This document shows positions 28,669 through 41,318 of a DNA stretch of 64,000 nt, in pieces. The DNA is taken from contig CP097973.1 in the NCBI GenBank assembly GCA_023703655.1, forward strand, positions 602,170-666,169. The letters are read 5' to 3'. Under the pieces are notes generated by a model, which was given only the letters and a program-made list of their open reading frames with translations, was not told the DNA's origin and did not search any database. Made by a program: the position numbers and the translations under genes. The DNA comes from SAR86 cluster bacterium (lineage in GTDB: Bacteria; Pseudomonadota; Gammaproteobacteria; Magnimaribacterales; D2472). The stretch's first letter is position 1; each line of letters opens with the position of its first letter.

Positions 28669-30336
28669 TTACATATTTGGATAATTTGGGCCGCCCATAC
28701 CTTCAGGGGTGACCCATTTTATATTTTGTGAGGGATCCTTAATATCACATGTCTTACAATGAACACAATTTTGAGCATTAATCTGAAAAGAATAAGTGCC
28801 GTCCTTCTCGACAACTTCGTATACTCCTGCTGGGCAATAACGTTGTGCTGGCTCATCATAAATTGGTAAATTTACGTTAATAGGTATGGATGGATCCTTG
28901 AGTTGTAGGTGACAAGGTTGATCCTCTTCATGGTTAGTATTAGATAAAAATACAGAAGATAACTTATCAAAACTTACGATTCCATCAGGTTTTGGATAAT
29001 CTATTTTTTTACATTCAGAACTTTTCTTAGTGCAAGCGTAATCAGGAGTTGAATGATTTAAGGTAAATGGTAGTTTACCCCTAAAAATTAATTGATCTAT
29101 TGCTGCCAATGCTACTCCTATTAAACCTTTAAATCCCCAAGCTAATCCTTTGTGAAGAAGAGGACCCCAATTTCTAGCTTTATAAAGTTCATCATTAATC
29201 CAAGATTCTTGAAACAACTCTTCGTATTTAAGTAAATCTTGTTCATAATTCTCGTTAGTGATTGCATCAAATACTACTTCTGATGCGATCATTCCTGACT
29301 TCATTGCTGTATGTGTGCCTTTTATTTTAGGAAAATTTAGAGTTCCTGCATTATCACCAACAATTAATCCACCAGGAAAACTCATTTTTGGTCTTGACTG
29401 ATAACCACCTTTTATTAGTGCTCTAGCTCCATATGCAACACGTGTACCTTTTTCTAAAATTTGTTTTATGTCTTTGTGTTGTTTCCACTCTTGAAATTCA
29501 TCAAATGGACTAATATGTGGATTTTGATAATCAAGAGGTACTACATATCCTAGATAAATTTGGTTATTTTCACCATGATAAAAATATGAACCTGATATTG
29601 TTCCATTACTTGGCCATCCCATTGTATGCATGACAGTCCCTTCACTATGGTCTTCAGGGGAAATATCCCATATTTCTTTAAATCCAATGCCATAATGTTG
29701 TGGATCTTTATTTTTATCTAGTTCATATTTTTTAATTAATTCTTTGCCTAAATGGCCCCTGCATCCCTCTGAAAATATTGTATATTTTGCTCTTAACTCC
29801 ATCGGTGGTTGATATGATTCTTTTTTTATACCATCTTTTGAAATACCCATTTCACCAGTTACTATTCCTTTAACAATATCATCCTCAATAATAAGTTTAG
29901 ATGCTGTAAATCCTGGAAAAATTTCAACCCCGTTATTTTCCGCCTGACCGGCTAACCAACGACAGAAATTAGCAAGGCTCATAATGAAATTTCCGTGATT
30001 ATTGAATGTAGGTATTAAGAAAGTAGGGAAGGGAACGTTAATTGATAGATTTTTTGTGAGCATAAATTTAACAATATCTTTTTTAGCCGGATTATTTAAT
30101 GGTGCATCTTTTTCTTTCCAGTCAGGGATTAATTCATTAAGTGCTGTTGGTTCAAAAACATTACCTGATAGGATATGGGCACCAATTTCAGAGCCTTTCT
30201 CAATCAAGCATATGGAAAGATCCTTATTATTTTCCTTGCATAATTGAGATAATTTAATTGCTGCACTTAATCCAGATGGACCACCACCTACAATAAGAAC
30301 ATCGTATTCCATTACATCTATATTTTCTTCTTCCAT
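28669..30336 (-). CDS. electron transfer flavoprotein-ubiquinone oxidoreductase
   Basis: A 555-residue membrane-associated flavoprotein that passes electrons from EtfAB to ubiquinone. The N-terminal FAD site is DVLIVGGGPSGLSAAIKLSQL (about 8-28). SEGCRGHLGK and the GGYQSRPKMSFPGGLIVGDNAG region are typical. The C terminus carries the 4Fe-4S site, with NCVHCKTCDIKDPSQNI after YCPAGVYEVV. Length matches the family. It is divergent from etfBA with 88 bases between, which makes a complete ETF module. Confidence 0.96.
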   Translation of the reverse strand: MEEENIDVMEYDVLIVGGGPSGLSAAIKLSQLCKENNKDLSICLIEKGSEIGAHILSGNVFEPTALNELIPDWKEKDAPLNNPAKKDIVKFMLTKNLSINVPFPTFLIPTFNNHGNFIMSLANFCRWLAGQAENNGVEIFPGFTASKLIIEDDIVKGIVTGEMGISKDGIKKESYQPPMELRAKYTIFSEGCRGHLGKELIKKYELDKNKDPQHYGIGFKEIWDISPEDHSEGTVMHTMGWPSNGTISGSYFYHGENNQIYLGYVVPLDYQNPHISPFDEFQEWKQHKDIKQILEKGTRVAYGARALIKGGYQSRPKMSFPGGLIVGDNAGTLNFPKIKGTHTAMKSGMIASEVVFDAITNENYEQDLLKYEELFQESWINDELYKARNWGPLLHKGLAWGFKGLIGVALAAIDQLIFRGKLPFTLNHSTPDYACTKKSSECKKIDYPKPDGIVSFDKLSSVFLSNTNHEEDQPCHLQLKDPSIPINVNLPIYDEPAQRYCPAGVYEVVEKDGTYSFQINAQNCVHCKTCDIKDPSQNIKWVTPEGMGGPNYPNM

Positions 30337-30424: not shown

Positions 30425-31174
30425 ATGAAAGCACTTGTTCCAATTAAAAGAGTTGTAGACTATAACGTTAAAGTAAGGCCACTTTCTGATAATTCAAATG
30501 TAGATTTAAATAATGTAAAAATGTCTATAAATCCTTTTTGTGAAATAGCTGTTGAAGAAGCTGTAAGATTAAAAGAAGCTGGCACCATTAATGAGGTTGT
30601 TGCTGTCACAGTGGGTTCATCAGCCTCTCAAGAGCAACTCAGAACTGCATTGGCATTAGGATGTGACAGAGCAATACTAGTAGAGACAGATAATGATCTT
30701 GAACCACTCTCAATTGCAAAAATTCTTGTAAAAATCCATGAAAAAGAATCATCTGATCTAATAATTCTAGGAAAACAAGCCATTGATGGTGATAATAATC
30801 AAACTGGCCAAATGCTTTCTGCGCTTCTTGATATTCCTCAAGCTACTTTTGCATCTAAATTAGAAATTAATGGTGATAATGCAAACGTTACCCGAGAAAT
30901 AGATGGTGGTCTTCAAACAATAAATGTTAAATTACCTGCGATTATTACAACTGACCTGAGACTTAATGAACCTAGATATGCTTCTTTGCCTAATATTATG
31001 AAGGCTAAGAAAAAAGAACTTGATACAATTAACGTTAGTGATTTAGGAATTGATATAGCCAAAAGAGTTGACACACTATCTGTTGAGCTTCCACCTGAGC
31101 GTGATGCTGGCATTAAAGTGGAATCTGTATCCGATTTAGTTGACAAACTTAAAAATGAGGAAAAAGTAATATGA
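30425..31174 (+). CDS. etfB: electron transfer flavoprotein, beta subunit
   Basis: A 249-residue beta subunit of the soluble electron carrier for acyl-CoA dehydrogenases. Family marks are [54 protein letters not shown] and the ETF beta signature [22 protein letters not shown] (residues about 175-196). It overlaps etfA by 4 bases, giving coupled equimolar synthesis. Confidence 0.97.
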
Positions 31175-32100
31175 GAGTTCTTGTAATAGCCGAACATGAT
31201 AATGCAGCATTAAAACCATCAACTTTAAATACAATTTCTGCTGCAAAGAAATTAACAGATGATGTTGATTTAATTATATGTGGGTTTGAGTGCGATAATG
31301 TAGCCACTGAAGCAGCTGGCATTGATGCTTTAACGAATGTTCATGTATGTAAGTCTGAACACTTAAAGTATCAATTAAGTGAAGATGTTACTCAAATCGT
31401 TGTATCTAATGCAAAAAATTATTCTCATCTTTTAGCACCTGCAACAACATTTGGAAAGAATCTGATGCCAAGAATAAGTGCATTGTTAGATGCACAACAA
31501 ATCTCGGATATCATTGAAGTTATAGATGAATGCACGTTTAAGAGACCTATTTATGCTGGTAGTTGCATTGCTACTGTTAAATCTAATGATGAAATTAAAG
31601 TAATCACAATAAGAGCTACAGCCTTTGATCCCTGCGCAAATGAAGGTGGTAATGCTGAAATTGTTAATATTGATCCAATTGATAGCAAAGGTCAATCAGA
31701 ATTTGTTTCAGAGGAACTTGCTAAGAGTGATAGGCCTGAACTAACAGCAGCAGATATCATAATTTCAGGTGGACGAGGGATGCAATCAGGCGATAACTTC
31801 CATTTACTTGAAACAATAGCCGATAAACTGGGTGCTGCTGTTGGAGCTTCAAGGGCTGCTGTCGATGCGGGTTTTGTCCCAAATGACTATCAGGTTGGAC
31901 AAACTGGTAAAATTGTTGCTCCAAATTTATATATTGCAGTTGGGATCTCTGGTGCAATTCAACATCTTGCGGGTATGAAAGACTCAAAAATTATTGTAGC
32001 AATCAATAAAGACGAGGATGCTCCAATATTTCAAGTTGCTGATTATGGGCTTGTTGATGATCTTTTTAATGCATTACCTGAGCTTGCAGAACAAATTTGA
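31171..32100 (+). CDS. etfA: electron transfer flavoprotein, alpha subunit
   Basis: A 309-residue alpha subunit carrying the FAD. The C-terminal FAD domain contains [43 protein letters not shown] and [14 protein letters not shown]-type sequence (here [17 protein letters not shown]), then [21 protein letters not shown]. It pairs with EtfB and donates to the ETF-QO encoded divergently. Its stop is one base from the stop of the convergent acyl-CoA dehydrogenase. Confidence 0.97.
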
Positions 32101-32101
32101 T

Positions 32102-33196
32102 TCATTGATTTGAAGTTAAATTCTGTGATAGTTTTGCTAGAGCTGATTTACTATTTCCATTCATCAATTCAAACTCTTTTGCCTCTAAGCAATATCTCCA
32201 CAATGGATATTCCTTAGCAACGCCCATACCACCATGCAAATGCTGTGCTGTGTATGAGATTTCATGTAATGTATTACCGAGTATATATTTAAGATTTAGT
32301 AATTCATTTTCGCATTCATTATTGTTTAAGTATTTGTAAGTAACATGCTTAAGATTTAAATCTAAAACTTGATTGGAAATAAAAGCATTTGCAGCTCTGT
32401 GAGCAACTGCTTGAAAAGATCCAATTGGTCTACCAAATTGCTCTCTGGCTGATGTATATTCTGAAGTTAGTTCAATCATTCTATTTGTGATACCTTTCGC
32501 ATAACTTGCTTGAATAAGTATTTTTTTTGCAGAAATATCTTTGAGGATATCTAATCCATTTTTATCGCCATTAATTATTTGATCTTGAGATATATCAAAA
32601 TTACTAAATGATATTTCAAAATAGGGTTTAGAGGTTGTGTTAGAAGTATGTCTGACATTACATAATCTTGGATCAATCAATGCTAATTTAATTCCATCAT
32701 CACAAATAAAAGATATCAGCATACAAGATGCTTGATCTGCAGCATATGAAAATATCTTTTTGCCAGTTAAACAATACCTTTCGCCTGTTATTTTTCCAAT
32801 CAATGAAGGAGATTCAATATCGTAATTAAGGGGTTCAACTAATGCAGAGCTAAAAATATAATCATCTTCTGAAAAAAGTTTTTTTAGTGCAGATTTTGCA
32901 ATTTCAGTATTTGATTCTGATAACGTCATTGCTACGTCACTTATACACTGGGTTGGATCAAATGTGGCATTTGAGTAGCCTAATTCTTCACAAACGATTA
33001 AAAAAAATTCAAGATTAAATGGATTTTTTGATTCTAAATCAAATAAATAGCCGCCTTGCTTTAATTCTTTAAATAATTCAAGATCTAATTTATATTCGTC
33101 ATATTTCAATAGATAATCATTACTCGAATAATTACCAAGCAGCTTCTTAATGTTATCTCTGATGATTGTGGATTCTTCTGAATTACTAAAATCCAC
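32102..33196 (-). CDS. acyl-CoA dehydrogenase, short subunit of pair A
   Basis: A 364-residue acyl-CoA dehydrogenase from GTG 33196, sharing one base with the stop of the preceding gene. The N-terminal domain is degenerate. The C-terminal domain has REQFGRPIGSFQAVAHRAAN and QHLHGGMGVAKEYPLWRY (about 318-335), so the usual Glu of the active-site loop is present. It ends soon after and lacks the GGTxEIQ flavin motif of ordinary family members. Its tandem partner has that motif instead. This pattern matches subunits of heterotetrameric acyl-CoA dehydrogenases. Confidence 0.88.
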   Translation of the reverse strand: MDFSNSEESTIIRDNIKKLLGNYSSNDYLLKYDEYKLDLELFKELKQGGYLFDLESKNPFNLEFFLIVCEELGYSNATFDPTQCISDVAMTLSESNTEIAKSALKKLFSEDDYIFSSALVEPLNYDIESPSLIGKITGERYCLTGKKIFSYAADQASCMLISFICDDGIKLALIDPRLCNVRHTSNTTSKPYFEISFSNFDISQDQIINGDKNGLDILKDISAKKILIQASYAKGITNRMIELTSEYTSAREQFGRPIGSFQAVAHRAANAFISNQVLDLNLKHVTYKYLNNNECENELLNLKYILGNTLHEISYTAQHLHGGMGVAKEYPLWRYCLEAKEFELMNGNSKSALAKLSQNLTSNQ

Positions 33197-34374
33197 TATC
33201 TTGACCTAGGCATAAATAATCCAGCCATCGCAATGATATCTCTTTGTACTTCGTTAGTACCACCTCCAAAGGTTAAAATAGACGCAGTTCTGTACATTCT
33301 TTCCAATTTAGAATTCATTATTGAAAGATCATCTTTTTTTAAGATTGCAATTTCTCCAAGAATTTCCATCATTTGCCTATAAGCTTCAATAAAAAATTCA
33401 GACCCATAGATTTTAGCCATAGAGGCATCTGTCATAGATAAATTTTCGTTTTCCATGCCCCATACTAGCTTCCAACAAATTAATTTTAGTGATTCCAAAC
33501 CTGAGTAAATATTAGCAACATTTCTTTTAACCCAATCAACCTCACTTAAATTAGTACCATCGCTGAGTTTAGTATCGTTGATTAATAGCAATAACTCCTG
33601 AAACATTTGATCTACAGGTCCATGATTAACAAGTGCTAATCTTTCAAGGTTTAACTGACTTGTAATTAAATTCCAACCTTCATCGATGTTACCTACTAAA
33701 TTTTGTTTGGGAACGTAAACATCCTCATAAAAAGTTGAGTTGGTAGTAACATCTCCAAGAGTTTTAATAGGAGTATATTTAAATCCTTTATCATCAGTGG
33801 GCACTATGAATATAGAAATTCCTTTGTGTTTTTTAACTTCATCATTAGTTCTTGTAGCAAGCCAAACATAATCAGCATAATTTGCTAAGCTGGTCCAAAT
33901 TTTTTGGCCATTAATCAGATAGCCATTATTCTTTTCTATGGCTCTAGTTTGTAAGGATGCTAAATCAGTACCAGAATTTGGTTCAGAATAACCTATTGCA
34001 AAAATAATATCGCCATTCAAAATACCTGTCGCAATATTCTCTTTTGCCCACTCGCTGCCAAATTTTACAATCATTGGTCCAACTGATTCGGTTGTTAAAA
34101 AAGGAAAGGGGAAGCCTGTTCTCATTACTTCTTCAACAAAAATATATTGTTCAGTAGGAGTAAATTCTTTTCCACCAAATTCTTTTGGCCAACTTAGGCC
34201 AATCCAACCATCCTTACCTATTTGTTTCAAAGTTTTTCTAAACTCAGGACCACCACCTTCAAAATATTTATCATCACTAAGTTCTTTAGTTAAACTTGAC
34301 GTCATCATTGAAGTAAAATATTCCCTCAATTCTTGTTTGAGGGACTCTTGTTTTTTATTTAATTCGATCTTCAT
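33196..34374 (-). CDS. acyl-CoA dehydrogenase, long subunit of pair A
   Basis: A 392-residue protein from ATG 34374; a TTG three codons upstream is the alternative. It has DGWIGLSWPKEFGGKEFTP, the flavin/substrate motif FAIGYSEPNSGTDLASLQT, INGQKIWTSLANYADY and the C-terminal GGGTNEVQRDIIAM. It lacks a GGxGxxxEYP-type loop. It therefore complements the short subunit encoded next. Substrates of such pairs in actinobacteria are bulky CoA esters such as sterol side chains; here the substrate is unknown. Confidence 0.88.
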   Translation of the reverse strand: MKIELNKKQESLKQELREYFTSMMTSSLTKELSDDKYFEGGGPEFRKTLKQIGKDGWIGLSWPKEFGGKEFTPTEQYIFVEEVMRTGFPFPFLTTESVGPMIVKFGSEWAKENIATGILNGDIIFAIGYSEPNSGTDLASLQTRAIEKNNGYLINGQKIWTSLANYADYVWLATRTNDEVKKHKGISIFIVPTDDKGFKYTPIKTLGDVTTNSTFYEDVYVPKQNLVGNIDEGWNLITSQLNLERLALVNHGPVDQMFQELLLLINDTKLSDGTNLSEVDWVKRNVANIYSGLESLKLICWKLVWGMENENLSMTDASMAKIYGSEFFIEAYRQMMEILGEIAILKKDDLSIMNSKLERMYRTASILTFGGGTNEVQRDIIAMAGLFMPRSR

Positions 34375-34434
34375 GGTTTGCAAATAATAAAAGAGTCATT
34401 ATAAATAATATATACTTAATATTTAATCTTTGTT

Positions 34435-39043: not shown

Positions 39044-40222
39044 ATGGACATAAATTTCACTGAATCTGAGAATAACTTTAGAAACGAAGTTAAAGATTTT
39101 CTTAAAAATGACTATCCAAAGCATGTACAAGAAAAACAAAATAAAGGTATACAGCTCGATAAACAAGATTTAATTGACTGGCATAAGTCACTTCATAAAA
39201 GAGGATGGGCTGGATACAATTGGCCTAAAGAGTATGGTGGTACAGGTTGGTCGCATACAGAAATTTATATTTTTCAAGAAGAGCTTGGTCTAGCAAATTG
39301 CCCAACAATTCTTCCATTTGGTGTAAACATGGTTGGGCCTGTAATTTACACATTTGGCAACGATGAACAAAAAAAACGTTTTTTGCCTGACATTCTTGAA
39401 TTCAATACATGGTGGTGCCAAGGATACTCTGAACCTGGTTCAGGTTCTGATCTAGCCTCTTTGAAAACAAAGGCAGTTAAGACTGGTGATAAATATATAG
39501 TAAATGGTTCGAAAACTTGGACAACCCTTGCACAAAATGCAGATTGGATTTTTTGCTTAGTTCGTACAGAAACAACTAACAAAAAACAAGAAGGCATATC
39601 ATTCTTATTAATCGACATGAAAACACCAGGAATAGAAGTCAAACCAATTATTACAATTGATGGAGATCATGAAGTAAATTCAGTATTTTTTACTGACGTT
39701 GAGGTTCCTGTTGAAAATTTAATTGGTGAAGAAGGAAAGGGTTGGACTTATGCTAAATTTTTACTTGCACATGAAAGATTTGGTATCACAGGAATACCAG
39801 CTCAGAAGTATTCACTTGAAAAATTAAAAGAAAGACTTGGATCTAATATCGATGAAGATTTAAAGCAGAAAATGGCTGATTACGAAATTGAGTTAAATGC
39901 TCTGCATTTCACTGAATTGAGATCACTTGCTGCACTAGCAAATGGTCAACATCCGGGCGCAGAATCATCAATTTTGAAAATTAAGGGAACTGAATTACAA
40001 CAAAGATTAACTGAGATCTTTATAGAAGCTGCTGGTCAATATATTTTGCCTTACGAGGGACCTGATGGTTTTAATTCAAATAAAGTGCCGTCATCAGAGA
40101 TTGGTTCAGATTTTTCAGTAAACTCAGTATCAAAATATTTGAATTTTAGAAAAACATCCATTTATGGTGGTAGTAATGAAATTCAAAAAAATATCATAGC
40201 CAAAGCGATATTAGGAGTGTAG
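39044..40222 (+). CDS. acyl-CoA dehydrogenase, long subunit of pair B
   Basis: A 392-residue protein with RGWAGYNWPKEYGGTGWSHTE, WCQGYSEPGSGSDLASLKT, VNGSKTWTTLAQNADW and the C-terminal flavin motif IYGGSNEIQKNIIAKAILG. In place of the Glu-bearing loop it has a longer PYEGPDGFNSNKVPSSEIG segment. It resembles the FadE-type long subunits that act only together with a short partner. It is the first gene of a two-gene unit. Confidence 0.9.
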   Translation: MDINFTESENNFRNEVKDFLKNDYPKHVQEKQNKGIQLDKQDLIDWHKSLHKRGWAGYNWPKEYGGTGWSHTEIYIFQEELGLANCPTILPFGVNMVGPVIYTFGNDEQKKRFLPDILEFNTWWCQGYSEPGSGSDLASLKTKAVKTGDKYIVNGSKTWTTLAQNADWIFCLVRTETTNKKQEGISFLLIDMKTPGIEVKPIITIDGDHEVNSVFFTDVEVPVENLIGEEGKGWTYAKFLLAHERFGITGIPAQKYSLEKLKERLGSNIDEDLKQKMADYEIELNALHFTELRSLAALANGQHPGAESSILKIKGTELQQRLTEIFIEAAGQYILPYEGPDGFNSNKVPSSEIGSDFSVNSVSKYLNFRKTSIYGGSNEIQKNIIAKAILGV

Positions 40223-40223
40223 T

Positions 40224-41318
40224 TTGGACTTAGAATTTTCAGATGAGCAGAATATGCTCAGAGATGCAGTATCTAAATTTTGTGAAACAGAATATACATT
40301 TGATAAAAGAGAGAAGATTGTTGAATCAAATTTAGGCCATAGTCCTGATCTCTGGAAACAATTTGCTGAGCTAGGTTGGTTGGGTATGCCGTTTAGTGAA
40401 AAAAATGGTGGTTATGATGCTGGTCCCATTGAATTATCAATTATTTTTGAGGAATTTGGTAAGCACTTAATAGTAGAACCATATCTGTCAAATATTGTTA
40501 TGTCAGGTTCATTGCTTGAAGCAACAGATACAGATGTTTCTAGAGAGCTAATTAATAATATTATTTCTGGTAACAAGCAAGTGAGTGTTGCATTTTCTGA
40601 GCCTAACAATGGTTATAAATTTCATGAGATAAGTTGTAGTGTTGTTGATAATAAAATAAACGGTACAAAATCGATTGTTTTAAATGCTGAATTTGCTGAT
40701 AAGTTCATTGTTTATCTAAAAAATGAAAATAATAACGGTTTGTATCTAGTAGATGCTGATACACCAGGTTTAAGTATTAATTCTTTTAGCACCATAGATG
40801 GATCTAATTGTGGCGATTTACACTTTGAAGATGTATCAACAGAAAATACAGTAGTATTGCTTTCTGGAGATGATGCTACACAAGGTATTGATAAAATGCT
40901 CGATCTTTCCATATTGTGCATATGTGCTGAAGCAATTGGTGGGATGTTCACTTCTTATACAAAAACAGTTCAATATACAAAAGAAAGAGAGCAATTTGGT
41001 CAACCAATATCGAATTTCCAAGTTTTACAACATCGAATGGTCGAGATGTTTATGGAAACTGAAATTGCAAAATCCTTGTTGATGAAGGCTATGATGCAAT
41101 TAGATGCTAACGATAAAGAATCCAGTAAAACAATATCTGCATTAAAAGCACAGGTAGGGAAAGCATCAAGGATAGTTGGGCAAGAAGCCGTTCAACTACA
41201 TGGTGGTATGGGAGTGAGCAATGAAATGTCAATTGGGCATTATTTAAAGAAATTTACTGCCATTGATTCAATGTTTGGGAATAGAATTTTTCATTTAAAA
41301 CGTTTTACTAGTTTATAA
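40224..41318 (+). CDS. acyl-CoA dehydrogenase, short subunit of pair B
   Basis: A 364-residue protein from TTG 40224, supported by AGGAG at 40213-40217, 6 bases upstream. It has ELGWLGMPFSEKNGGYDAG, REQFGQPISNFQVLQHRMVEM and VQLHGGMGVSNEMSIGHYLKK, keeping the loop Glu. It then ends at FGNRIFHLKRF, without the GGSxEIQ motif. It is the same length as the short subunit of pair A and probably paralogous to it. It is expected to form a heteromer with the protein encoded just upstream. Confidence 0.88.
   Translation: MDLEFSDEQNMLRDAVSKFCETEYTFDKREKIVESNLGHSPDLWKQFAELGWLGMPFSEKNGGYDAGPIELSIIFEEFGKHLIVEPYLSNIVMSGSLLEATDTDVSRELINNIISGNKQVSVAFSEPNNGYKFHEISCSVVDNKINGTKSIVLNAEFADKFIVYLKNENNNGLYLVDADTPGLSINSFSTIDGSNCGDLHFEDVSTENTVVLLSGDDATQGIDKMLDLSILCICAEAIGGMFTSYTKTVQYTKEREQFGQPISNFQVLQHRMVEMFMETEIAKSLLMKAMMQLDANDKESSKTISALKAQVGKASRIVGQEAVQLHGGMGVSNEMSIGHYLKKFTAIDSMFGNRIFHLKRFTSL

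Follow-up and report, generated by a model that had tools for sequence, protein, structure and literature searches.

A gene pair in SAR86 bacteria that probably encodes a steroid acyl-CoA dehydrogenase related to ChsE4-ChsE5

Introduction

The closest described relatives of the gene pair reported here are two-subunit acyl-CoA dehydrogenases (ACADs) that act on steroid side chains; among these, ChsE1-ChsE2 and Comamonas ORF41/ORF44 serve the C3 (isopropionyl) stage. In ChsE4-ChsE5 (FadE26-FadE27) from Mycobacterium tuberculosis (PDB 4X28), the alpha subunit holds the isoalloxazine, the catalytic Glu and the substrate site, and the beta subunit contacts ADP-ribose (PMC11153573). Tcur3481-Tcur3483 from Thermomonospora curvata (PDB 6WY8/6WY9) is a C3-preferring enzyme (PMC8399759).

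SAR86 bacteria were listed among steroid degraders by Bergstrand 2016, which also stated that there was no evidence for Proteobacteria catabolising cholesterol by the 9,10-seco pathway (PMC4810484). According to a 2024 SAR86 study, these bacteria make up ~2-6% of the surface-ocean microbial community and broadly carry fadE26/27 homologues by annotation; most genomes of one family have cyp125, and a few genera of another have ring genes. The main text of that study makes no mention of ltp or echA (PMC11582366).

Here we describe a SAR86 gene pair (pair A) of an enzyme type that is already known. What is new is that strict ChsE4-type pairs are restricted to genera with HsaA; further additions are the presence of pair A together with HsaA in a genome of a second family, and a co-occurring Ltp3/Ltp4-like module.

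The gene pair and its neighbourhood

The window is a stretch of 64,000 nucleotides from a SAR86 genome that consists of a single 1.33-Mb contig. Pair A comprises two adjacent ACAD genes (Table 1) that share one base, as the first-pass annotation had claimed: the alpha stop codon TAG (33198-33196) and the beta start codon GTG overlap at 33196 on the minus strand (TAGTG). Alpha matches all three Pfam acyl-CoA dehydrogenase domains and beta matches the C-terminal domain alone. On one side of the pair the ETF-ubiquinone oxidoreductase (ETF-QO) gene lies beyond etfB-etfA; on the other are nfuA and a gene that, from reading its sequence, we take to be mfd.

Table 1. Features of pair A and adjoining genes (positions in the window)
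Feature	Position	Strand	Basis
Alpha gene, ChsE4/FadE26-type acyl-CoA dehydrogenase, 392 aa	33196..34374	-	PDB/Pfam matches and trees
Beta gene, ChsE5/FadE27-type, 364 aa, GTG start	32102..33196	-	PDB matches, tree, Foldseek, overlap
Alpha Pro89-Phe90-Pro91, Pro loop linked to ChsE4 large cavity	34102..34110	-	Alignment A5; PMC11153573
Alpha Glu244 codon, predicted catalytic base (= ChsE4 Glu247), helix-G position	33643..33645	-	Joint alignment
Alpha FGGG, start of C-terminal flavin motif FGGGTNEVQ	33259..33270	-	Alignments A1, A5
Beta REQFGRPIGSFQAV, predicted to hold ADP end of alpha-bound FAD	32405..32446	-	Alignments
Beta Glu329 codon, loop Glu of HGGMGVAKEYP	32210..32212	-	Not conserved across betas (joint alignment)
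etfA, electron transfer flavoprotein alpha, convergent with pair A	31171..32100	+	Pfam ETF_alpha; neighbour kept in relatives
etfB, electron transfer flavoprotein beta	30425..31174	+	Pfam ETF; neighbour kept in relatives
ETF-QO, presumed final electron acceptor	28669..30336	-	Pfam Fer4_ETF_QO and ETFQO_UQ-bd

This organization is conserved. Neighbouring alpha and beta genes that face etfBA recur in 11 other distinct SAR86 contigs (L009-L016, L057-L059), a count that excludes L060 and L061 as repeats of L015 and L016; a Cohnella match (L017, 23%) was left aside as remote. The alphas of relatives, which include named SAR86 genomes, are 69-74% identical to the pair A alpha. In two genera without pair A (L062, L063), trmA, nfuA and mfd are kept and the pair A block is missing. 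Unlike ChsE4-ChsE5, pair A adjoins ETF/ETF-QO genes and is not part of a cholesterol cluster. ETF genes are also found within steroid-type clusters of a Vibrio and a Novosphingobium plasmid.

In close relatives, trmA and a beta-lactamase-fold hydrolase gene lie between nfuA and alpha (L009 5675-7997; the window equivalent is 34375-34434). The former is upstream in relatives and the latter in several of them, and tblastn found neither anywhere in the whole window. These upstream genes were considered as a clue to the substrate and set aside as uninformative. One relative has a gene for an FMO/Baeyer-Villiger-like monooxygenase inserted upstream of trmA (L015 4074-5543, equivalent to L060 12341-13810).

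Placement among acyl-CoA dehydrogenases

Searches against solved structures placed both subunits with steroid enzymes. Alpha matched ChsE4 (4x28_A) at 378 bits, with ~47% identity over its full length, and Tcur3483 at 353 bits; the best non-steroid enzyme scored 115. Beta is divergent (22-28% identity to known betas, ~26% to ChsE5) and matched ChsE5 (4x28_D) at 73 bits and Tcur3481 at 63 bits, with the next match at 43. Tcur3481-Tcur3483 was the second-best solved relative for both subunits. Beta shares the REQF..PIGSFQAV and HGG motifs with ChsE5, and the genes are adjacent in both systems. Structure predictions were made as single chains, and the poor alpha model (pLDDT 48) was left out of the argument. 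For the beta model (pLDDT 73), the best Foldseek matches by E-value were 4x28_C and the 6wy8/6wy9 chains – though TM-scores to other ACADs were similar, so the model favours steroid heterotetramer chains only mildly.

Phylogeny against ChsE-type subunits, which the first-pass annotation had proposed as a check, gave the same placement. Alphas of pair A share a 100/100 clade with the FadE26 group and a Tcur3483/igr-like group, away from pair B (described below), an Scd1A-like alpha and an IpdE1-like alpha; the beta tree repeats this grouping, again in a 100/100 clade with known steroid subunits. The two trees are congruent, and in both the pair is separate from two single ACADs that its genome also encodes. 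Within the alpha clade, the SAR86 sequences form a separate, fully supported lineage, and Tcur3483 groups with the igr-like alphas, not with pair A. Pair A thus very probably belongs, judging from its sequences, to the alpha2beta2 steroid acyl-CoA dehydrogenases of the ChsE4-E5/ChsE1-E2 type. Its identification as a pimeloyl-CoA dehydrogenase was rejected (TIGR03204, 180.7 of 623.85 bits; TIGR03203, 58.9 of 652.7 bits).

The same data bear on the side-chain stage at which such an enzyme would act. A pair A of this type might serve the last, C3 (isopropionyl) stage instead of the C8 stage, a reading that we consider unlikely. AU tests rejected neither a union of the pair A alpha with FadE26 (p 0.40) nor one with the C3 type (p 0.22), and the latter result, like a Tcur3483 score that nearly equals the ChsE4 score, would suit the C3 stage; the best alpha score is nevertheless that of ChsE4.

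A second alpha/beta ACAD pair (pair B) is present in the window at 39044-41318 on the plus strand and is PimC/PimD-like, under the cut-off. PimC/PimD (TIGR03204/TIGR03203), the type represented by pair B, likewise have two adjacent alpha/beta-type ACAD genes, but the pair B alpha falls in another clade and is 30% identical to the pair A alpha. Strong pair-B-like alpha matches are present both in genera that have steroid-ring genes and in genera that lack them, so pair B looks like a general beta-oxidation enzyme.

Active-site and FAD-binding residues

The first-pass annotation had described the two subunits as having complementary missing motifs, and the asymmetry is real. Alpha keeps the C-terminal flavin motif (FGGGTNEVQ) and lacks the HGGxG...EYP loop, and beta carries a Glu-bearing loop (HGGMGVAKEYP), both as had been stated. 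However, beta extends past the position of the C-terminal flavin motif, which is present in degenerate form (ELMNGNSKSAL) and followed by ~14 more residues. The claim also failed on the loop Glu as catalytic complement. At the position of beta Glu329, ChsE5, Tcur3481 and the beta of one SAR86 genome (G021) have Asp, and other residues occur elsewhere; we rejected this Glu as the catalytic base because it is unconserved in betas and the predicted base sits in alpha.

The catalytic base of LCAD and IVD occupies the helix-G position (PMC11153573). Alpha has Glu244 at this position, a residue that the first-pass annotation had not listed, and so does not lack its base. In a joint alignment, all alphas of pair A and of the ChsE4/Tcur3483 type have this Glu and no beta does, the pair A betas having Lys, Arg, Gln, Asn or Thr (Lys in the beta studied here). 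Alpha also keeps Pro89 and Pro91 of ChsE4, within a Pro-Phe-Pro stretch that is invariant in alignment A5, and the key glycine of the Tcur3483 FGGG motif.

The FAD-binding motifs are divided in the same manner. Alpha carries YSEPNSGTD and WTSLANYAD, both of which are degenerate in beta, and the REQFGRPIGSFQAV stretch is near-invariant among betas and missing from alphas. The alpha set therefore comprises isoalloxazine motifs and the helix-G Glu without RxQFG, and the beta set comprises RxQFG (RxAF in one genome) and the HGG loop without the helix-G Glu and with degenerate isoalloxazine motifs. Since these complementary sets recur in every pair A and ChsE4/Tcur3483-type pair aligned, they are not due to chance. 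They predict an FAD site split between the subunits, with isoalloxazine motifs in alpha and the ADP-binding motif in beta.

These patterns make it very improbable that the genes encode two independent homomeric acyl-CoA dehydrogenases that are neighbours by chance. Such enzymes would be compatible with the presence of beta Glu329 at the MCAD catalytic loop position and with a case for the pair that is made at the level of sequence, but the RxQFG FAD-ADP motif is missing from alpha and the isoalloxazine motifs from beta, the genes are adjacent at every pair A locus read, and the alpha and beta trees are congruent.

We infer that pair A forms an alpha2beta2 tetramer of the ChsE4-ChsE5/ChsE1-ChsE2 (FadE26-27/FadE28-29) subfamily, with an FAD count to match its two predicted active sites. 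Alpha would bind the isoalloxazine and acyl-CoA, with Glu244 taking the alpha-proton, and beta would reach across the interface to hold the ADP end of FAD, without a working site of its own. The reaction would be alpha,beta-desaturation of a steroid side-chain CoA ester and, by analogy with established ACAD biochemistry, its electrons would pass to ETF and then to ETF-QO, encoded next door. Taken as a whole – a steroid ChsE-type heterotetramer with a split FAD site, alpha Glu244 as the base, and ETF/ETF-QO as electron acceptors – we regard this proposal as quite probable. The link to FadE26-FadE27 and FadE28-FadE29 drawn in the first-pass annotation is supported by the closest solved structures, the trees, the residue sets and co-occurrence with steroid-ring genes.

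Distribution across SAR86 genomes

We examined 41 order-level genomes from 17 genera, calling the pair A alpha above 550 bits and HsaA above 340 bits. The pair A alpha is present in 12 of the 41 genomes, from genera g1, g9 and g10 and from g11, which belongs to another family. HsaA is encoded by 10 of these 12 and by 0 of the 29 others (Fisher p 6e-8 by genome and 4e-4 by genus, both optimistic given the relatedness of the genomes); the two pair A genomes without HsaA are 70-71% complete. An Ltp3-like thiolase is similarly distributed (11/12 pair A genomes and, as an orthologue, 0/29 others). Genera g1, g9 and g10 may be one clade, in which case the pattern reflects two independent co-occurrence events. 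A CYP125-like gene is more widespread than pair A. Among 368 other genomes sampled across the class, two gave a strong match (E 1e-130), in each case next to homologues of Ltp2, Shy and MaoC.

The fadE26/fadE27 homologues of the 2024 study come from the same bacterial order and bear the same annotation as pair A. They are reported broadly across three families (PMC11582366), whereas strict ChsE4-type alphas occur here in 4 of 17 genera, those with HsaA. Pair A marks the SAR86 genera that keep steroid-ring genes, and thus looks like a sharper marker of steroid catabolism than the broad fadE26/27 annotation.

This distribution also informs the choice of substrate. A heterotetramer of the same fold could act on non-steroid bulky or branched acyl-CoAs, for example terpenoid or phytol-derived ones, and the large-cavity Pro loop would suit other bulky acids (PMC11153573), as would the many ACADs and broad lipid catabolism that the 2024 study describes for SAR86 (PMC11582366). 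We judge this improbable, as the four genera that have pair A are also those with HsaA and the Ltp3-like thiolase, and its nearest relatives outside SAR86 are located in steroid side-chain clusters. A steroid side-chain CoA ester is the likely substrate.

Steroid genes elsewhere in the genome

Pair A is located apart from the other steroid genes of its genome, which was read outside the window in stretches surrounding genes of interest. These steroid genes encode an HsaA-like protein (375 bits against a curated cut-off of 450), a KshA-like Rieske protein with a KshA_C domain, and KstD (482 bits to 7p18), and HIP genes are also present. One cluster encodes HsaC-like and HsaD-like proteins, a hydratase, an acetaldehyde dehydrogenase, IpdA/IpdB/IpdC-like proteins, a crotonase and an IpdE1/E2-like ACAD pair, with Ipd names assigned partly from reading of sequence and gene order. 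A P450 has its best solved match in CYP125MRCA at 268 bits, the next distinct enzyme scoring 202. An Scd1AB-like ACAD pair at L023 8770-11195 is a candidate for the C5 side-chain stage.

A CasG-like ligase gene is followed by genes for two DUF35-like proteins, two lipid-transfer thiolases and a crotonase. The DUF35-DUF35-thiolase-thiolase run has the same order as in an actinobacterial sterol cluster, a Nocardia farcinica locus (41, 43, 39 and 61% identity), and the crotonase is 57% identical to an ORF in that locus, which also has an alpha 76% identical to ChsE4. The Nocardia record carries no annotation; we assign its genes the names FadE26, EchA19, Ltp4 and Ltp3 on the basis of the ChsE4 identity and the M. 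tuberculosis gene order. The DUF35-DUF35-Ltp4-Ltp3-EchA19-like module occurs in two SAR86 families (L052 8084-12050 and L071 8453-13277), the g11 genome (L071) having the same thiolase module as the host. The four genes in the same order in SAR86 and Nocardia farcinica suggest that this sterol side-chain module may have been transferred long ago. Rhodococcus requires Ltp3/Ltp4 for C24-branched sterol side chains (PMC8708139, PMC6273163).

We found no Ltp2/Sal or Shy orthologue in the host genome; the side-chain pathway thus has a gap at removal of the last C3 unit, or these genes are missing from the assembly. For pair A, a role at the C3 stage could leave the C5 stage to the Scd1AB-like pair, but the Ltp2/Sal or Shy partner was not found in the genome and genes for long side chains (the CYP125-like P450 and Ltp3/Ltp4/EchA19-like proteins) are present. 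The first beta-oxidation step, on a sterol 26-oyl-CoA, would be the most likely stage for pair A, with the C5 or C3 stage also possible.

Sterols are membrane lipids of algae. With slightly less than even confidence, we propose that a few SAR86 genera have an aerobic sterol route that includes C24-branched algal sterols, and that pair A represents a third, SAR86-specific lineage of steroid ACADs. The route would consist of the CYP125-like P450, the CasG-like ligase, pair A, the EchA19-like protein, the Ltp3/Ltp4-DUF35-like proteins and the ring pathway. If true, it would run counter to the 2016 statement on Proteobacteria and 9,10-seco cholesterol catabolism (PMC4810484). Pair A is amenable to production and assay, and so provides a way to ask if SAR86 consumes sterols.

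Finally, by eye, we observed large TonB-dependent-receptor-like ORFs beside several ACAD or steroid-gene loci (L019 9232-11454, L020 13099-15471, L021 5358-7880 and L052 1283-3808), for which sterol uptake is a possible role.
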